From positions 248,001-312,000 of the forward strand of contig CAIXAE010000008.1 in NCBI GenBank assembly GCA_903917345.1: a DNA stretch of 64,000 bases, read 5' to 3'. Within the stretch, counting starts at the first letter, position 1, and every line of letters begins with the position of its first letter. The notes beneath the pieces were generated by a model. That model worked only from the letters and a program-made list of their open reading frames with translations, did not search any database and was not told the origin of the DNA. This DNA comes from an uncultured Methylococcaceae bacterium. GTDB lineage: Bacteria > Pseudomonadota > Gammaproteobacteria > Methylococcales > Methylomonadaceae. The position numbers and the translations under genes were made by a program. This document shows positions 20,844 to 63,357 of this stretch, in pieces.

Positions 20844-20912
20844 TCTAAATATCTTAGTTAATTATTTGCCGTGTATATGTTTATACGGCATTGATGCCTC
20901 AATATTAAAACC

Positions 20913-20940
20913 AAAAAAATAGCCGCTATAGTAGCGGCTA
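20913..20940 (-). terminator. Intrinsic terminator reading leftward
   Basis: Perfect 9-bp stem TAGCCGCTA (20920-20928) / TAGCGGCTA (20932-20940) with a 3-nt loop. On the minus strand it is followed by seven T (20919-20913); on the plus strand there is no T-tract. No minus-strand protein gene lies upstream of it, which points to a non-coding transcript. Confidence 0.75.
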
Positions 20941-21022
20941 ATGAGATTACAACAACTAGAACTAATTTAATCTAGAAAACAGAGCATTTACATACGTAAA
21001 ACCCCGTTAACACTTTAATTTT
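20913..21022 (-). ncRNA. Candidate phosphate-responsive small RNA
   Basis: Between parA and lnt, and antisense to neither, the minus strand carries a complete small transcription unit: three PhoB-like repeats (21073-21045), a TAGTAT -10 candidate 10 bp after the last repeat (21034-21029), and about 110 nt without a usable reading frame. This contains two small hairpins (TTTAC/GTAAA, 20987-21000; CTAGA/TCTAG, 20956-20975) and ends in a perfect 9-bp terminator stem with seven T. The start position is estimated from promoter spacing. Target and conservation are unknown. I do not recognise the RNA. Confidence 0.45.
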
Positions 21023-21044
21023 AACTAAATACTATTAAATACTG

Positions 21045-21073
21045 TTTACAGTTTGATGACTGTTACATGACAG
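21045..21073 (-). promoter_or_regulatory. Pho-box-like array, three units
   Basis: On the minus strand: CTGTCAT (21073-21067), CAGTCAT (21062-21056) and CTGTAAA (21051-21045), each separated by 4 bp (GTAA, CAAA), an exact 11-bp period. The first unit is identical to the PhoB half-site consensus and the second differs at one position. Orientation is leftward, away from lnt. Apart from this site and the small RNA, the 349-bp gap between parA and lnt holds nothing else I can assign. Confidence 0.55.
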
Positions 21074-40675: not shown

Positions 40676-41449
40676 TTATTCGTTAACGCTTGATTCTCTA
40701 TCAGGATGTATCTGGTTAACGATTGACGCTCTCGCCTCATGGCTTATAGCGTTTCTATCTCGACCTGCACTTGTAATAAGGGGTAAAAATGTAATCAGCA
40801 CTTCAATTTTATCCATCTTCAACATGCTGATTAAGTGTGAGACAAAGTCATCTTCACCTACAAACGGGGCTAATTCTTTTGATGCACCGATATATTCAAG
40901 GGCTATCGGTTGAATAAGGGCTTTTGTGAGTAATGCGGGTTGAAATAATGAGGCATGAAAGCCTAACACATCATCACCCTGAGTAGTCGTACCTTCAGGA
41001 AAAGCAATGATATTAGAGTGTTGTTTTAACAACCAAATCATGCGCTCATTGATTTCTCTAATGTGTTTTTTATCGCCACGACGGATAAAGAGTGTACCCG
41101 CTTGTCTGGCTAAAAACCCAACAACAGGCCAAGCAGAAATATCACTTTTTGCGACAAAATAAGCCGGTAAGAACTTACCAATCACCACAATATCTAACCA
41201 TGATATATGATTGCTAACCAATAACGTGCCATCATGAGGCACTGAACCTATCTGAGTAATATGTAGTTTAAGAATCGAACTAAAACTATCTAGCCAATTC
41301 TGTTTTATCGCATCACGTCTTATTTTAGCTTTATTAGCAGACCTCAAAACGCCTAATACAGGAAACACGAGCCCCGCTAATACTAAACCATAGGCAAATA
41401 AAACAATGACAGCACTTAATCTATAAACTAGCCGCAGTTTCAATTTCAT
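40676..41449 (-). CDS. Lysophospholipid/ornithine-lipid O-acyltransferase (PlsC/OlsA-like)
   Basis: A 257-residue membrane-bound acyltransferase of the PlsC family. There is an N-terminal membrane helix (about residues 8-35). The catalytic HxxxxD is in SNHISWLDIVVIG (about residue 90), and the acyl-acceptor motif FPEGTTTQGDDV lies near 150. Alone it could make phosphatidic acid. However, it overlaps the upstream OlsB-like gene by 29 bp and shares its promoter, so second-step acylation of lyso-ornithine lipid (OlsA role) is the better reading. The ATG has an AGGCG site. A general PlsC role is not excluded. Confidence 0.8.
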   Translation of the reverse strand: MKLKLRLVYRLSAVIVLFAYGLVLAGLVFPVLGVLRSANKAKIRRDAIKQNWLDSFSSILKLHITQIGSVPHDGTLLVSNHISWLDIVVIGKFLPAYFVAKSDISAWPVVGFLARQAGTLFIRRGDKKHIREINERMIWLLKQHSNIIAFPEGTTTQGDDVLGFHASLFQPALLTKALIQPIALEYIGASKELAPFVGEDDFVSHLISMLKMDKIEVLITFLPLITSAGRDRNAISHEARASIVNQIHPDRESSVNE

Positions 41450-42212
41450 TATTCGCCTGATAACCTTTCATATAGTGTTTGCTGTAACGCTCTTTTAACT
41501 GATCTAAGGGTAATAAAACAAATAGATCCATACAGTTAAAATCTTCATCCCAATACGGTTCGCCACAGATCAACGCCCCAAAACGTAAATAGGCTTTTAA
41601 TAAAGGTGGAATACCTGATTCGTCACGTAGACATCTTAATTCAGCCGGTACCTTAATACGTGGAGTCACTTGAATGTCAGTCGTTGCAATATTTTTCTCA
41701 TCAATATTTCTAAATACCGCATCTATAGCGTAACCACTAGGGCCCGGTGTAATACTCGCACAGCCGATTAAGTAGTTATATTGACCTTCTAAGGCATACT
41801 GCACTAACGAAGACCACAATGTCGTTAATACGGCGCCACCACGATAATCAGGATCTACACAGGTTCTACCCACTTCTAAAAAGCGTCCTGGTAACGCTAA
41901 TATAGGGGTCATATCAAATTCATCTTGAGAATAATAACGCCCTAAACTTTTTGCTTGATCTTGATTCAATAAACGTGTGTAACCTACGATCTTTTTATTA
42001 ATGTTGTCATACACCACCAAATGATCACAGTAGCTATCCACTTCATCGTAATCTAACCCTTCTGCTTCTGTCTTTAACTTAGCACCCATTTCTCTACCGA
42101 ACACGCGGTATCTAAGGGCTTGCGCTTCTTTTATTAATTCGTCTGTATCAGCTAAAAAACATTCTAGTTTTTTAGTGGCGTTGATAAGTTTTTCTGTCGC
42201 TGTGTTTTTCAT
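41421..42212 (-). CDS. OlsB-like ornithine N-acyltransferase (GNAT fold)
   Basis: A 263-residue protein of the hemolysin-like acyl-ACP N-acyltransferase family (PF13444). Characteristic blocks are EAQALRYRVFGREMG (about residue 29), DEVDSYCDHLVVYD (about 55), GRFLEVGRTCVDPDYRGGAVLTTLW (about 109-133) and LIGCASITP. OlsB joins a 3-hydroxy fatty acid to the amino group of ornithine, the first step to ornithine lipids, which replace phospholipids in phosphate starvation in several bacteria. The adjacent PlsC-type gene and the Pho-box array upstream fit this role. An AGGTGG ribosome site precedes the ATG. Confidence 0.8.
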   Translation of the reverse strand: MKNTATEKLINATKKLECFLADTDELIKEAQALRYRVFGREMGAKLKTEAEGLDYDEVDSYCDHLVVYDNINKKIVGYTRLLNQDQAKSLGRYYSQDEFDMTPILALPGRFLEVGRTCVDPDYRGGAVLTTLWSSLVQYALEGQYNYLIGCASITPGPSGYAIDAVFRNIDEKNIATTDIQVTPRIKVPAELRCLRDESGIPPLLKAYLRFGALICGEPYWDEDFNCMDLFVLLPLDQLKERYSKHYMKGYQANNEIETAASL

Positions 42213-42257
42213 AAGTTGCCACCTAGCTCAAATTAAATTCGATATAGATTAAGCAAC

Positions 42258-42323
42258 GCAGGTGACAGGTTAATGTCAAATTGGTTAAAGAAACGTGACA
42301 ATCCGATGACGAAATGATGACAA
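42258..42323 (-). promoter_or_regulatory. Pho-box-like array, six 11-bp units, before the olsB-like gene
   Basis: Read on the minus strand, six consecutive 11-mers begin TTGTCAT (42323), TCGTCAT (42312), TTGTCAC (42301), CTTTAAC (42290), TTGACAT (42279) and CTGTCAC (42268). Five of six match the PhoB half-site CTGTCAT/C at 5 or more of 7 positions, in one orientation toward the olsB-like gene, whose ATG lies 46 bp downstream. A TATATC -10 candidate follows the array. The divergent pepA lies on the other side. Confidence 0.65.
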
Positions 42324-42474
42324 TTTAGGTGTTTGCTTTTTTATAATAAAACGCCATGCTTATTTAAGTAGCGATGCTATTGGTTGTATAATTCAACTCA
42401 GCTACAATCGTGCGTTGTTTCACTTTGTGAACCGTCACGCTTCAACACTAACCGCCACCATTATGAGTTACGCT

Positions 42475-43962
42475 ATGGAATATGCTTTAGAAACAACCTC
42501 CTTAGATGCATTGCAAGCAGATTGCTTGATTATCGGGGTCTATCAAGACCAACAATTAACTGATTCTGCTGCCTCACTCCCAGAAAGCACACGTAATGTC
42601 ATCAGTAAAGTGCTTGCTAGAGGTGACAATAAAGGCGCCATTGGCACTACTCTTTTAATAAACGCTTTACCTGACAGTGGTATCGAACGCGTTTTATTAG
42701 CCGGTCTGGGCGAGCATAAAGCATTGACAGGTAAAAACTTTAGAAAAGCACTCCAAGCGGTGTTTGCCAGCTTAAAAAAATCTCAAATTAAAACGGTGAC
42801 ATGTACTTTAGCCGATGTAGATGTGATTAACGGCGACCGTCAATGGAAAACTCGCCAAATTATAGAAATAGTAAACGATACGGCTTATCAATTTACGGCT
42901 TATAAATCGAATAAAGACCTAGACTTTACTATTGAGAAAATCAGCATTACAGCACCCACATCTGAATTAACTCAAGCACAGCTCGGTTTATCTCAAGGCA
43001 CTGCGATTGCTGATGGCATCAATTTAACCAAATTATTAGGCGACTTACCCGGCAACATCTGTACACCCACATACTTAGCAGAACAAGCCATTGAATTAGG
43101 CAGTCAATATGACAAATTGAGTATTAACGTTCTTGAAGAAGCCGATATGGAACAACTCGGCATGGGCGCTTTGTTATCAGTATCTCGTGGCAGCAGACAA
43201 CCGGCTAAATTAATTACGCTGGATTATCAAGGTGGTGATAAAAACGCTAAGCCTATCGTGTTAATTGGTAAAGGCCTTACCTTTGATGCGGGTGGTATTT
43301 CTTTAAAGCCTGGCTTAGGCATGGATGAAATGAAATACGATATGTGCGGTGGTGCTACTGTCTTAGGCACTTTAAAGGCCGCTGCAGAAATGAAACTACC
43401 ACTCAATATCATCGGCTTAATTCCGGCTTCCGAGAACTTACCCGATGGTGATGCCAACAAACCCGGTGATGTGCTTATTAGTATGTCTGGTAAAACCATT
43501 GAAGTATTAAATACGGATGCAGAAGGTCGCTTACTATTATGTGACACTTTAACGTATGCAGAACGTTTCAACCCAGACGTAGTGATCGACATGGCAACCT
43601 TAACAGGCGCATGTTTAGTGGCATTAGGTCGAGTGCCTAGTGGTTTATTAGGCAACAATGACGAACTATGTAACGCTTTACTCGCTGCCGGTGAAGTAGC
43701 CAATGACAGCTTATGGCGCTTGCCGTTATGGGAAGAATATCAAGAACAACTTAAATCAAACTTTGCTGATTTAGCGAATATTGGCGGCAAAGATGCAGGC
43801 ACTATTACTGCCGCATGCTTCTTATCACATTTTGCTGAAAAATTTAACTGGGCTCATTTAGATATTGCAGGTACTGCATGGCGCACAGGCCAAAACAAAG
43901 GGGCAACAGGTAGACCTGTACCTTTATTGACGCAATATTTATTAAATAGGGCTTATGGCTGA
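42475..43962 (+). CDS. pepA: Cytosol aminopeptidase (leucyl aminopeptidase, M17)
   Basis: A 495-residue two-metal aminopeptidase. The C-terminal catalytic domain shows GKGLTFDAGGISLKPG (metal-binding Lys and Asp), DMCGGATVLG, and the M17 signature NTDAEGRLLLCD. The frame stretches back to a TTG at 42415; the ATG at 42475 (MEYALETTSL) best matches the family N-terminus and length, with an ATG at 42463 as the alternative. A TATAAT at 42387-42392 is a likely -10. In E. coli PepA also binds DNA at carAB and recombination sites. It overlaps holC by 8 bp. Confidence 0.93.
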   Translation: MEYALETTSLDALQADCLIIGVYQDQQLTDSAASLPESTRNVISKVLARGDNKGAIGTTLLINALPDSGIERVLLAGLGEHKALTGKNFRKALQAVFASLKKSQIKTVTCTLADVDVINGDRQWKTRQIIEIVNDTAYQFTAYKSNKDLDFTIEKISITAPTSELTQAQLGLSQGTAIADGINLTKLLGDLPGNICTPTYLAEQAIELGSQYDKLSINVLEEADMEQLGMGALLSVSRGSRQPAKLITLDYQGGDKNAKPIVLIGKGLTFDAGGISLKPGLGMDEMKYDMCGGATVLGTLKAAAEMKLPLNIIGLIPASENLPDGDANKPGDVLISMSGKTIEVLNTDAEGRLLLCDTLTYAERFNPDVVIDMATLTGACLVALGRVPSGLLGNNDELCNALLAAGEVANDSLWRLPLWEEYQEQLKSNFADLANIGGKDAGTITAACFLSHFAEKFNWAHLDIAGTAWRTGQNKGATGRPVPLLTQYLLNRAYG

Positions 43963-57844: not shown

Positions 57845-58555
57845 TTAAATATTAACGCGTTTTTCTAACTCTTCTTGAGTCAAATGGCGAACATCTTCAC
57901 CTTTGATCATAAACACTAAATGTTCACAAATGTAACACGCATGATCACCGATACGCTCTAAGGCACGTACTGTCCAAAGGACATCCAACGTACGCGTAAT
58001 GTTTCTTGGATCTTCCATCATTTTAGTGATTAATTGACGCAGTATACTGTCGTACTCGCGGTCGACATTGATATCTAAAGCGGTAATAGTAGCTACAGTA
58101 TCAACAGACATTCTTGCGAATGCATCTAATGAATCATGTAACATACCTTTCACTAAAACGGCCATGTGCTCTAATTCATAAGGTGAAATTCTAGAATCAG
58201 AATCATTCAATTTGATGGCCAATTCAGCGATTTTTTCAGCTTTATCGCCAACTCTTTCAATCTCATGAATGATCTTGATCACTGTAATCAACAATCTTAA
58301 GTCAAATGCAGTGGGCTGTCTTAACGCTAAAATCTGCGTACATTCGTGATCGATAGCACTCTCAAGCGCATCCACATCGTTATCTTGTTTAATGACTAAT
58401 TCAGCTAATTCAATGTTACCTGTTGTGTACGCTTCAATAGCTAATTCTATTTGGCGCTCAACAAGCCCACCCATGATTAATACTTTGTTACGAATATCTT
58501 CTAGCTCGTTATTAAAGCGTTCGGATATGTGATGACCTATTTTAGTATTGTCCAT
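57845..58555 (-). CDS. phoU: Phosphate transport regulator PhoU
   Basis: A 236-residue, all-helical protein of two three-helix bundles. The repeated metal-binding signatures are visible (ERVGDKAEKIAELA near residue 97 and ALERIGDHACYICEHLVF near 200). PhoU couples the Pst transporter to the PhoR-PhoB two-component system and keeps the Pho regulon off when phosphate is ample. An AGGAG site overlaps the pstB stop, 14 bp upstream. Confidence 0.95.
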   Translation of the reverse strand: MDNTKIGHHISERFNNELEDIRNKVLIMGGLVERQIELAIEAYTTGNIELAELVIKQDNDVDALESAIDHECTQILALRQPTAFDLRLLITVIKIIHEIERVGDKAEKIAELAIKLNDSDSRISPYELEHMAVLVKGMLHDSLDAFARMSVDTVATITALDINVDREYDSILRQLITKMMEDPRNITRTLDVLWTVRALERIGDHACYICEHLVFMIKGEDVRHLTQEELEKRVNI

Positions 58556-58569
58556 TGCTTACTCCTAAA

Positions 58570-59400
58570 TTAACCATACCGACCGGTAATGTAATCTTCT
58601 GTTTGTTTTTTTACAGGATTAGTGAAAAGCTCGCTGGTTGTACCCATTTCGATCAAATCACCCATATACATAAATGCTGTGTAATCAGACACACGAGCGG
58701 CCTGTTGCATATTATGTGTCACGATAACAATGGTATATTTTTCTTTCAACTCATTGATCAACTCTTCAATCTTTAAAGTTGATATGGGATCAAGCGCAGA
58801 AGCAGGTTCATCTAATAATAAAACTTCTGGCTCGATAGCAATCGCACGTGCAATCACTAACCGTTGTTGTTGACCACCCGACATGCCCAAGGCATTATCA
58901 TTCAGACGATCTTTCATTTCGTCCCATAATGCCGCGCCTCTTAAAGAATTCTCAACGGTTTCCTCTAAGACTTGCTTATCGTTAATCCCTTGAATTCTTA
59001 AGCCGTAGGCCACGTTTTCAAAGATTGATTTAGGAAACGGATTTGGCTTCTGAAACACCATACCCACGCGTCTACGTAAAGCCGCTACATTAACAGACTT
59101 ATCATAGATGTTTTCGCCGTCAAGTAGAATCTTGCCTTCAATTCTAGCGCTATCAACCAAATCATTCATGCGGTTGATGCAACGTAATAAAGTTGATTTA
59201 CCACAACCACTGGGGCCAATGAATGCGGTTACTTTTTTCTTTGGCATTTCCATATTAATGCCATGTAACGCTTGTTTTTCACCGTAAAAAAGATTGAGAT
59301 TCTCAACTTTTAGACAAGTTTCATTAGACTCGTCCTGGGTGCCTTTGTTACGAATAACAGAGCTCATATCAATTGCGTGTGTACGTATTTGTTCTGACAT
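58570..59400 (-). CDS. pstB: Phosphate ABC transporter ATP-binding protein PstB
   Basis: A 276-residue ABC ATPase. Walker A is GPSGCGKST (about residue 61), the signature is [17 protein letters not shown] (about 172), Walker B is [13 protein letters not shown] and the H-loop is VTHNMQQA. The [23 protein letters not shown] segment is PstB-specific. The N-terminal 25 residues are an extension common in the Pseudomonas-like type. A GGAAGG site precedes the ATG, 4 bp after pstA. Confidence 0.96.
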
Positions 59401-59404
59401 TTGA

Positions 59405-61060
59405 TTAACCTTCCAAAGCGCGATATTTTTCTCGCAAGTTATTTCTTATCACAATTGCAGCCAAATTAAGACCTACAATAACTAAAACCAACAATAATGC
59501 TGTTGCGTAAACCAACGGTCTAGCGGCTTCAACGTTAGGACTCTGAAATCCAACGTCATAGATATGAAAGCCTAAGTGCATAAACTTTCTATCTAAATGT
59601 AAAAAGGGGAAATTACCATCTAACGGTAAAGTCGGTGCCAGTTTAACCACACCCACCAACATCAGCGGTGCTACTTCCCCTGCGGCTCTTGCTACCGCTA
59701 AAATCAAACCCGTCATCATGGCTGGGCTCGCCATAGGTAAAACCGTCAACCACAAGGTTTCTAATTTTGTTGCCCCTAAGGCTAAACTACCTTCACGAAT
59801 CGAACTGGGGATACGTGCTAAACCTTCTTCAGTCGATACAATAACCACCGGTAACGTCAGTAGAGCTAAGGTAATCGAGGCCCACAATAAACCGGGAGTA
59901 CCATAGACAGGCGCAGGTAAAGATTCTGGGAAGAATAAACGATCGATGTTACCGCCAAGAATATAAACAAAGAATCCTAAACCGAACACCCCGTAAACCA
60001 CTGATGGCACACCGGCTAAGTTATTAACCGCAATTCTAATTAAACGAGTCACAAAACCTTGCTTTGCATACTCGCGTAAATACACCGCAGCAATAACACC
60101 AAAAGGCGTCACGATAACTGACATCATCATGACCATCAATACGGTACCGAAGATGGCAGGGAAAATACCGCCCTCAGTATTCGCTTCTCTAGGATCATCC
60201 GTTAAAAACTCAATCACCTTAACAACATAGTGCTTCATCTTAGCAAACACAGACATTGAATTAGGCTGATAAACACGCACTATCTTAGCTAAAGATATTT
60301 TAACTTGCGTGCCGTTTTCAGTCTCAGCCACCAGAGAGGCTTTTCTGATTCTTTGATATAAATCCGCTAACGTAACTTGATAAGCTTTATAAGAAACATC
60401 ATAAGCCGCTTTATCATCGGCAATGCTTTGTTTAGCCGCATCATCAAAACGATTTTCTAATTCTAACTTACGTTGCTTAAGTCTTAATTTCTCAAGACCG
60501 TAGTTAATAGCACCAATTTCTTTTTTCTCTAAATGAGCAATCTCTTTAAATAAATCACTCGCTTCTTGTAATTTAGCTTGTAGTACGGGCATAGCGTCAG
60601 CACCCGAAGCCAATACTTGACCTGATTCTTTAACCTCAACCAAATGCCCGTAAAAGTTACCCCACTCACGGCGCTCAACCACAATTAAGTCGTCAGGCTC
60701 TGTTTGTTCTTTTACGTTACGCTCTTCTATCCACATAAAGTCTGTACCCGTGATATCACGGTTACCGACTTTAACTAAATATTGCACTAAGGTATCTTCA
60801 TTATCAGCCATTTTATGGCCAGTTGATTTAGCCATTGCCGCAGGCGTTATGCTGGTATCAACCTTCTCACCGATAATGACACGTTCTGGCTTATTTTCTT
60901 CTTGATAAAGAAACTTCACAACTTGTGATGGCCAGAAATGCCCAATACCTCTAGCGGTTACTAATCCTAAAATACCCACCACCATCAGCATACACACACT
61001 GACAGCTGCAGCATTTAGCCATATCCAAGGGGTACCACTTTTAAACCATGTCTTAATCAT
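59405..61060 (-). CDS. pstA: Phosphate ABC transporter permease PstA (long type)
   Basis: A 551-residue permease, nearly twice the E. coli length (296). After the first membrane helix (about 14-37) there is an insert of about 260 residues with a predicted coiled coil (about 175-225, rich in Lys/Glu/Leu). The usual permease domain follows ([31 protein letters not shown], from about residue 300) with the EAA-type loop [20 protein letters not shown]. It overlaps pstC by 4 bp. Confidence 0.93.
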
Positions 61061-63357
61061 AATGAGCTATATTTTTCACGTAGACGCTGACGAATAATTT
61101 CAGCTAAAGTATTAAAAACAAAGGTGAAGGTAAACAACACCAATGCAGCTAAAAACAACACGCGGTAATGAGTACTATCTACAGCAGATTCAGGCATTTC
61201 AACCGCAATGTTTGCCGCTAATGTTCTTAAACCTTGAAACACACTGAGATCCATTACAGGGGTATTACCCGTTGCCATCAATACAATCATCGTTTCACCG
61301 ACAGCACGACCCAAACCAATCATAACGGCAGAGAAAATACCGGGACTGGCCGTTAATAAAACGACCTTCGTCATAGTTTGCCAAGTAGTTGCACCTAAGG
61401 CTAAAGAGCCCACGGTAAGATGTTTAGGCACACTAAAAATAGCATCTTCAGCAATCGAATAAATAGTAGGAATTACAGCGAATCCCATGGCTATACCCAC
61501 GACTAAAGCATTTCTTTGATCGTAGCCAATACCCAATTCTGTTTTAAACCAATCACGCAACGTGCCATGGAACAAATACGCTTCTAAAGGGATACTGATA
61601 GTCACTGCCAGCCAACCACTCATAAGAATAACGGGGACTAAAATAGCAGACTCATACCCTTCTGGGATTTGCTCTAAGATGGACTTGGGTAAAAATTGCC
61701 ACGCATACGAGAACGCAATAACAGCAATCGGTACGAATATTAAGATAGAGAATAAGCCGGCTAAATACTCTTCAATAATAGGTGCCAACCATAAACCCGC
61801 TAAGAAACCTAAAATAACAGTGGGTAAAGCCCCCATTAATTCAATAGTCGGTTTTACATATTGACGCATTTTAGGCGTCATAAAATACGCCGTATAAATA
61901 GCGCCCATTAAAGCCAATGGCATCGCGACTAACATCGCATAAAACGCGGCTTTTAAGGTACCGAACACTAAAGGGGTTAAGCTGTATTTAGGCTCAAAAT
62001 CAGAGTTAGCAGAAGAGGACTGCCAAATGTAATCCGGTTTAGCATAACTTTCGTACCAAACCTCTTGCCACAATGACTGTATAGACACTTCAGGATGTTT
62101 ATTCTCAACATTCCAAGACTTCATTTGTCCGTCAGCTTCTTCAACTAACACCGCATTCGCTCTAGGCGATAAAGCCGCAGCAGTCGGTGTGCTATCACCG
62201 AGTGACTCTTTAATTAACTGTCTTTCAGAGGTTGAATGATAAACACCTAATACATTAGAGGCATCAACCGTAGAAAAACCCTTACGACGCTGTTCTGGGT
62301 TGATATAAAGCACCGCTTTATCGGAGACTTTAAACGCTCTTATTTTTTCTAACTTAAAGCTGTTACTTGCACTTCTGACTTTACTCCATTGCGTCACTAA
62401 GCCAGAAGAATCACCTACCATCAACGATAAATCACCGTTTAAAAAGGCACTGCTTGTAACTGATTGACCCGACTCTACCATCGATTGTTCGTTGATTAAG
62501 ACCGGCGCCGTTTTTTCAGTAATATTAATAACCGCTAAAATACCGTCAGAATTAAACAGATAAAGATTAGCTTCGTCTTTATCGATTAAAATCTTATTCA
62601 CTTTCTGGGCAGAAACCGCATCAACAATGGCATCTGTGCGTGTTAAGGTCGCTTCATCTGAGAATAATGATTGCTCTTTCTCAAAATGAGCTAAGCGAAT
62701 TTTTGAATTTCCTGCCGCATCAGCAACTGTTTTAGCAACGATGGTGCTGGATTTGTCACCGATTTTAACGGCCACATTTTCTAAACTGGCCCCTGTATCA
62801 TCAATCACCAGCGGGGCTTCACCCATGGGGTACGATAAAGACGGCGTAATAACGCGTACATTATTAGGATAAGACACTTTATATTGATGCTTTACGATTA
62901 CGACTTTACCATCTGATAAACCGTATATCACCGCACCTTCATCAATAGGACTACCCTGTGAAAAGCTCACAATTTTAGAACCTTCAGGGATTTTTACAGA
63001 TTCGCTAAGAATCGTTTGACCGGTTGCAAGGGTAAAGAACACCACCTGCCCCGCATCAGTAAATCGGGCACCGACTTCATTTTGCTCTTCAATTTCGAGT
63101 AATACGGTTTTACCTAACTTAGATTCAGGCACACTGTATTGAGCAATCGGCTCTGCAGACGCAGATATAAAAAGTGGATAAACCACATACAGTAAATAAA
63201 AGAATATGAGTGCAATCGCAAAAATGATGCCTAAACCACCTGCAATCACCCCGTAGCGGGCCCCTAAATCTTTAAAAAGCCGCCATCTCTCATGAACACT
63301 ACCCGAAGATAGCAACAAAGTAGAGGAAGTATTATTTTGATTATTCATTTTAGACAT
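61057..63357 (-). CDS. pstC: Phosphate ABC transporter permease PstC (long type)
   Basis: A 766-residue permease; E. coli PstC has 319. The first helix (about 36-60) is followed by a beta-rich extramembrane insert of about 380 residues that reads like repeated strands (IYGLSDGKVVIV, LYLFNSDGILAVI, SLMVGDSSGLVTQW), suggestive of a propeller. The permease domain begins near residue 450 (PLVFGTLKAAFYAMLVAMPLALMGA) and ends with the [18 protein letters not shown] coupling loop and final helices. Pseudomonas-type PstC proteins have the same layout. The start is ATG 63357, or possibly 63348. Confidence 0.92.
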   Translation of the reverse strand: MSKMNNQNNTSSTLLLSSGSVHERWRLFKDLGARYGVIAGGLGIIFAIALIFFYLLYVVYPLFISASAEPIAQYSVPESKLGKTVLLEIEEQNEVGARFTDAGQVVFFTLATGQTILSESVKIPEGSKIVSFSQGSPIDEGAVIYGLSDGKVVIVKHQYKVSYPNNVRVITPSLSYPMGEAPLVIDDTGASLENVAVKIGDKSSTIVAKTVADAAGNSKIRLAHFEKEQSLFSDEATLTRTDAIVDAVSAQKVNKILIDKDEANLYLFNSDGILAVINITEKTAPVLINEQSMVESGQSVTSSAFLNGDLSLMVGDSSGLVTQWSKVRSASNSFKLEKIRAFKVSDKAVLYINPEQRRKGFSTVDASNVLGVYHSTSERQLIKESLGDSTPTAAALSPRANAVLVEEADGQMKSWNVENKHPEVSIQSLWQEVWYESYAKPDYIWQSSSANSDFEPKYSLTPLVFGTLKAAFYAMLVAMPLALMGAIYTAYFMTPKMRQYVKPTIELMGALPTVILGFLAGLWLAPIIEEYLAGLFSILIFVPIAVIAFSYAWQFLPKSILEQIPEGYESAILVPVILMSGWLAVTISIPLEAYLFHGTLRDWFKTELGIGYDQRNALVVGIAMGFAVIPTIYSIAEDAIFSVPKHLTVGSLALGATTWQTMTKVVLLTASPGIFSAVMIGLGRAVGETMIVLMATGNTPVMDLSVFQGLRTLAANIAVEMPESAVDSTHYRVLFLAALVLFTFTFVFNTLAEIIRQRLREKYSSL

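Follow-up and report, generated by a model that had tools for sequence, protein, structure and literature searches.

The olsB- and olsA-like genes of an uncultured Methylococcaceae bacterium are preceded by a predicted array of six PhoB half-sites, and we consider it very likely, from the architecture and the conservation of this region, that the array is part of the promoter of an olsB-olsA-like operon that is turned on by phosphorylated PhoB under phosphate starvation. In its phosphorylated form, PhoB is bound head to tail on 11-bp units, of which each box has two, and brings the sigma-70 RNA polymerase to the −10 element. Control of the olsB-like operon by PhoB is strongly supported, because arrays of this type were found in all the distinct olsB upstream regions that were compared, the spacing to a −10 element is 10 bp, the geometry is that of known E. 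coli promoters, the genome encodes high-scoring PhoB and PhoR proteins, and the same motif is present at other Pho genes. The role of the operon would very probably be the remodelling of lipids during phosphate starvation, with ornithine lipid as the probable product. The analysis was carried out on a stretch of 64,000 nucleotides, hereafter the window, from a genome that is 99.8% complete.

Results

Architecture of the olsB upstream region

The minus strand from 42323 to 42258 divides exactly into six 11-mers (TTGTCATcatt, TCGTCATcgga, TTGTCACgttt, CTTTAACcaat, TTGACATtaac and CTGTCACctgc), all of them directed to the OlsB-like gene, as a preliminary description of this DNA had pointed out (Table 1). 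Tandem CTGTCAT-like heptamers with 4 bp between them, two units or more, define the Pho boxes of the E. coli type, and the six units have this form. When compared with the heptamer [CT]TGTCA[CT], units 1 to 6 match at 7, 6, 7, 5, 6 and 7 of 7 positions (38/42 in sum), the fourth being the weak one (5/7). The neighbouring in-register 11-mers score just 1 before the array and 3 after it; therefore, the array consists of six units.

Table 1 Features of the olsB upstream region and of related genes in the window
Feature	Position	Strand	Remarks
Six-unit PhoB-box array (three tandem 22-bp Pho boxes)	42258..42323	-	predicted from sequence
5' ends of the array units	42323, 42312, 42301, 42290, 42279, 42268	-	
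10-bp spacer from last unit to −10 element, CTGCGTTGCT	42252..42261	-	sequence; spacing kept in 62/63 regions
Predicted −10 element, TAATCT	42246..42251	-	TANNNT 10 bp past last unit
Probable ribosome-binding site, AGGTGG	42219..42224	-	sequence, inferred
olsB-like gene, 263 aa, GNAT N-acyltransferase	41421..42212 (ATG at 42212)	-	Pfam Acetyltransf_5, 1e-33
olsA-like gene, 257 aa, PlsC-type O-acyltransferase	40676..41449, overlapping olsB end	-	Pfam Acyltransferase, 8e-21
phoU, pstB, pstA, pstC	57845..63357	-	pstS crosses the right end of the window

Such a score is not expected by chance: the window was simulated 100 times with a first-order Markov model, and on both strands the top six-unit score was 30 as compared with the observed 38. 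Under the assumption of independent positions, 2e-10 sites per window and 8e-9 per genome are expected to score at least 38. The region was also scored with a weight matrix, a check that had been proposed beforehand, built from 12 E. coli half-sites (two from phoA, two from phoB, four from pstS and four from ugpB). The array reached 44.5, against 5.2 for the next six-unit site in the window once the array's own shifted registers were excluded. With two units, the top site of the window is the one at 21073 (19.4), and the best pair of the array obtains 16.1. When a four-unit pattern was allowed 3 mismatches or fewer, the array was its sole match in the entire 2.48-Mb genome (2 overlapping places; control, 0). 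The two-unit pattern, with 164 places in the genome and 162 in the control, is not in excess and, in consequence, weak boxes are not callable by sequence alone. A search of Rfam over positions 41900-42600 returned nothing at gathering score.

Conservation of the array and of its distance to the −10 element

For the comparison with relatives, 74 olsB-like loci were collected, 21 from the genus of the window's genome and 53 from named organisms; after removing 9 duplicates and 2 loci without upstream sequence, 63 distinct upstream regions were obtained, which include the window's own and are not all independent. The named loci belong to Methylococcaceae, Methylobacter, Methylovulum, Methyloglobulus, Methylomagnum, Crenothrix sp. 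D3 and other Methylococcales, with Methylohalobius and Methylothermaceae among the more distant ones. The preliminary description had considered that the 11-bp repeats might be absent from relatives, and the opposite was observed: an in-register array of 4-8 units in the orientation of the gene is present in 63/63 regions. With four units read in the sense direction at period 11, every one of them scores 21-26 of 28. Other periods (8, 9, 10, 12, 13 and 14) were evaluated in the 62 regions that are 200 bp or longer and gave maxima of 18-21 of 28; after shuffling, a score of 21 was reached once in 1240 regions. Counted by one rule, there are 4 units in 18 regions, 5 in 2, 6 in 35, 7 in 5 and 8 in 3 (n=63); these counts depend on the rule, given that six units are found in 32/63 or 35/63, and a few of them are inflated, e.g. 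L065 and L092. Antisense four-unit scores of 21-23 were found in 3/63 regions (L066, L085 and L089), thus orientation alone is not absolute. A PlcP-like phosphoesterase gene is the divergent neighbour in L066, L071 and L080, and in L066 it lies on the side of the antisense array.

In 62/63 olsB upstream regions a TANNNT sequence begins exactly 10 bp beyond the last unit, and in none of the 63 was it found at 8, 9, 11 or 12 bp; in the sole exception, L065, the counting rule misplaced the anchor. It should be mentioned that this figure was 57/63 under the initial rule for defining the last unit, and 62/63 under a rule that was revised after weak registers were seen to have shifted the anchor. 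From the last unit to the ATG there are 46-51 bp in 61/63 regions. In E. coli, the −10 sequences of phoA (TATAGT), phoB (CATAAT) and pstS (TATTTT) are at the same 10-bp distance, a Pho box 10 bp upstream of the −10 has been given as a rule (PMC1906773), and the spacing between the pho box and the core promoter has been called strict (PMC10294691). The array, in the orientation of olsB and 10 bp upstream of a −10 element, has the layout of an E. coli-type PhoB promoter.

In a tree of OlsB proteins, regions with short and with long arrays cluster; 8 changes of length are needed, of which 5 are forced by well-supported branches, in a tree that is silent on the ancestral array length and whose bootstrap is not settled. 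The OlsB of Crenothrix sp. D3 groups beside that of a member of the genus, so this genus seems to include Crenothrix sp. D3. The gene is not universal in the genus, since a strong olsB match was obtained for 21/35 genomes, 6 carry an OlsF-like gene and 8 have neither.

The olsB-olsA-like gene pair

A gene for an Acetyltransf_5 GNAT protein followed by one for a PlsC-type acyltransferase is the arrangement of an OlsB/OlsA pair, and the olsA-like gene follows olsB in 51/53 named loci; the other two (L057 and L075) are truncated by contig ends. Among the NCBIfam models, the top match of the OlsB-like protein is OlsB (3e-47, 161.3 bits, below the equivalog cut-off of 320), with a second OlsB model at 1e-46, OlsF at 1e-14 and the exosortase acyltransferase at 2e-9; the top match of the OlsA-like protein is OlsA (8e-33, 113.5 bits, below the equivalog cut-off of 300). 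Both proteins being under these cut-offs, they are named here OlsB-like and OlsA-like. The earlier designation of the genes as an ornithine-lipid pair is thus probable: OlsB and OlsA are indeed the best models, but both scores fall well short of the equivalog level. A search of solved-structure sequences with OlsB gave no useful match (top E 0.15).

PhoB, PhoR and the pst operon

Just one protein of the genome exceeds the curated cut-off for PhoB (329 bits vs 296), and the product of the adjacent gene, at L102:3972-5249, exceeds that for PhoR (413 bits vs 334). This PhoB is 59% identical to that of E. coli and shares with it R193, T194, D196, V197, H198, R200, R201, R203, T217 and R219, which we take to be DNA-contact and recognition-helix positions. 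The genome has, therefore, a cognate PhoB and PhoR, and these residues are conserved in the former. Three more full-length regulators of the PhoB family score 158-249 bits, below the PhoB cut-off. A pst-phoU operon had been noticed about 16 kb away, and phoU does start ~15.5 kb from the array. The expectation that the gene pair is under PhoB control is strongly supported by the arrays in 63/63 regions, the −10 spacing in 62/63 and a PhoB and PhoR over their curated cut-offs.

Pho boxes at other genes of the genus

A search for the four-unit pattern in the 35 genomes of the genus identified 24 places in 13/35 genomes (control, 0). Eleven of these are at olsB, 3 at pstS and 10 elsewhere; these last precede Porin_O_P-type genes, a type I phosphodiesterase gene, an operon for a probable Na/Pi cotransporter (Na_Pi_cotrans) and the gene for a PKD-domain protein, two of the four porin-type genes having been identified by their N-terminus only. 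The motif before olsB is, in this manner, shared with undisputed Pho genes, namely pstS and those for the phosphate porin and the Na/Pi transporter. A perfect four-unit array (28/28) was observed at L201:628-831 (minus strand) in genome G010, with a second array ~160 bp upstream; the N-terminus of the product encoded behind it resembles those of the Porin_O_P genes of L203 and L207.

The pstS gene was found at 33 places in 32/35 genomes, and 30 loci were scored. The four-unit score is at least 21 of 28 in 27/30 loci, and the best pair starts 81-86 bp ahead of the position homologous to the start codon in 28/30. The pstS array of the window's own genome is among the 3/30 below 21 of 28: at L100:3128-3111 (minus strand) it has two good units, with TATGAT 10 bp past the second, and most loci of the genus have four, as if its two proximal units had decayed. 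Upstream of phoB there is a weak pair (11-12 of 14) whose sense score is not above the antisense one (30 loci, 33 genomes), and in the window's own genome the two-unit scores are weak at phoB (11/14) and at plcP (10/14). In the case of the PlcP-like gene, for which 33 genomes had a match, TANNNT lies 10 bp past the best pair in 23/30 loci; in the other 7/30, which correspond to the six olsF-type genomes and G009, GAAAAT is found there, and no olsF was found in G009.

The olsF-type genomes are G008, G025, G027, G029, G032 and G033 (loci L195-L200). In these, OlsB finds at best a weak match (2e-7 to 4e-6), inside a frame of 578-581 aa; the G008 copy, which was the one scanned, passes the OlsF cut-off (781 vs 620). 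In these genomes olsF is back to back with the PlcP-like gene, there is a two-unit Pho box on each side, and TAAAAT is present 10 bp past the olsF box in 6/6 genomes. In L198, 395 bp separate this box from the ATG, and in L199 the olsF copy is broken by a stop.

On contig C15 of the window's own genome, a three-unit Pho-like array (19/21) was observed at L101:2240-2268 (minus strand). Control of a gene by Pho is unsupported at this place, where the downstream sequence has, on the strand of the array, just a 37-aa open frame and no TANNNT at 10 bp.

Discussion

Alternative explanations of the array

The explanations that may compete with PhoB activation of the olsB-olsA-like operon differ in what they question. 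If the periodicity were a product of chance or of low complexity, without function, one would count in its favor that Tandem Repeats Finder did not report the array, there being nothing else of weight; the simulations, the expectation and the −10 spacing in 62/63 regions are against it, the conservation across relatives refutes it, and we regard its probability as negligible. A different question is which gene is served, because the array sits in an intergenic region common to olsB and the divergent pepA, and it could act on pepA or on both genes. Nevertheless, the repeats are directed to olsB, they are 10 bp from the −10 on that side, and pepA was found next to olsB in 3 (L041, L042 and L075) of the 51 named loci for which upstream sequence exists, the array being kept in the other 48, which makes service to pepA highly improbable. 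There is a slim chance that the protein bound to the repeats is another regulator of the OmpR/PhoB family, three further members of which are encoded in the genome; these are below the PhoB cut-off, the best-scoring regulator retains the recognition-helix residues, the motif is the E. coli Pho-box consensus, and it is also present at pst, phosphate-porin and Na/Pi-transport genes.

More room is left for a PhoB site that is real and an operon whose product is a lysine, glutamine or other N-acyl amino acid lipid instead of ornithine lipid. The OlsB and OlsA scores beneath the equivalog cut-offs would allow this, and in Acinetobacter OlsB has been reported to be necessary for both ornithine and lysine lipids (PMC11828411). 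On the other hand, the OlsB models are far ahead of all other NCBIfam matches, and six genomes of the genus without a strong olsB match have an OlsF-like frame behind a two-unit Pho box, as if one gene had been swapped for another with the same task. We consider such a product unlikely, and ornithine lipid remains the probable one.

Proposed mechanism

For the PhoB-activated operon the following sequence of events can be proposed. PhoB dimers would occupy head to tail three consecutive 22-bp boxes, i.e. six 11-bp half-sites, and the protein on the promoter-proximal unit, placed 10 bp upstream of the −10, would replace the −35 contact and recruit the sigma-70 RNA polymerase. Low phosphate would in this way induce the operon, whose products would N-acylate an amino acid, most likely ornithine, and then O-acylate the product. 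The resulting phosphorus-free lipid would substitute for phospholipid, which the PlcP-like protein, a putative phospholipase, would meanwhile break down. The additional boxes may raise occupancy, cooperativity or steepness; the constant anchor on the promoter side, together with a number of units that varies on the far side, fits activation from the proximal box.

In the window's own genome there are six PhoB units at olsB, two good ones at pstS (mostly four in the genus) and two weak ones at phoB. A tentative and rather doubtful extension of the proposal is that the number of half-sites ranks the Pho regulon, with olsB above pstS and phoB, that array length sets the threshold or the steepness of the lipid switch, and that the candidate Pho-linked small RNA described below joins this regulon.

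Comparison with known systems

The E. coli pstS promoter, with two Pho boxes formed by four 11-bp units, is similar to the array in heptamer, 11-bp period, orientation and 10-bp distance to the −10. It has four good units (26/28) and, unlike the array, drives phosphate transport; its best stretch of six registers reaches 35/42 but runs over the −10 element. Multiple PHO boxes have been reported for E. coli ugpB (PMC4415409), and we found there seven in-register units from −147 (scores of 6, 7, 6, 5, 5, 4 and 6). It is likewise long, but it belongs to a different gene and its units are more degenerate, the best six adding up to 33/42 versus 38 in the array. The array was originally described as unusually long, which is right beside pstS, phoB and plcP of the genus but not beside ugpB: given the seven degenerate registers of the latter, a length of six units is not unprecedented. 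Considering that Pho boxes before olsB and the multiple boxes of ugpB are already known, the array is located at the long end of the known range.

A Pho box before olsB and the formation of aminolipids in low phosphate have been reported in Acinetobacter (PMC11828411) and in Burkholderia sensu lato (PMC7814305). As these reports present it, the former has one CTGTCATNNNNCTGTCAT-type box, versus six units here, and a link to PhoR based on mutants, and the boxes of the latter are matrix predictions. Methylosinus trichosporium OB3b, likewise a methanotroph but an α-proteobacterium, carries out PlcP and ornithine lipid remodelling in low phosphate, and the presence of olsA, olsB, olsF, plcP and phoB/phoR has been charted across methanotrophs (PMC9239053); the term 'pho box' is absent from the main text of this article. 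The principle of Pho-controlled aminolipids has, in consequence, already been described in other bacteria, and the formation of ornithine lipid in low phosphate has been reported in one methanotroph. Among the matches listed for the ornithine-lipid and Pho-regulon literature, titles and abstract openings contain no report of Pho arrays before olsB in Methylococcaceae.

What the present analysis contributes is that aminolipid synthesis of gammaproteobacterial methanotrophs is assigned to the Pho regulon, on the basis of sequence, through 63 distinct loci. The arrays, which share a constant promoter anchor and have from four to six or more units, constitute a natural series in which the number of half-sites could be related to the PhoB response. 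If the induction is true, the growth of methane oxidisers in phosphorus-poor water would be tied to membrane remodelling. The understanding of Pho control itself is unchanged.

A candidate Pho-linked small RNA

A candidate Pho-linked small RNA was observed at 20910-21073 (minus strand), flanked by ParA-like and lnt-like genes, and it is a fresher find than the olsB array. In this stretch, a three-unit Pho-like array occupies 21073-21045 on the same strand, and it is followed by ~110 nt, in which no minus-strand open frame of at least 20 aa was found, and then by a hairpin like that of an intrinsic terminator. These features suggest that the candidate may be a small RNA controlled by PhoB. In E. 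coli, EsrL is a phosphate-induced small RNA, at which binding of PhoB was reportedly not seen (PMC10294691).

A DNA search with the candidate gave strong matches (E < 1e-12) in 6/35 genomes of the genus, its own included, and two further genomes had short weak matches only. A covariance model made from the six copies recovered the same genomes, 6/237 of the family, and the candidate had no Rfam match at gathering score. It folds better than shuffled sequences (z −2.96). The six copies share an invariant 20-nt core, TGTTTTCTAGATTAAATTAG, and the hairpin shows no covariation because its stem is identical in all of them. Ten bp past the third unit of the array there is a TA in 6/6 loci, with the final T of TANNNT present in the window only. 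L244 and L245 have a weaker second unit.
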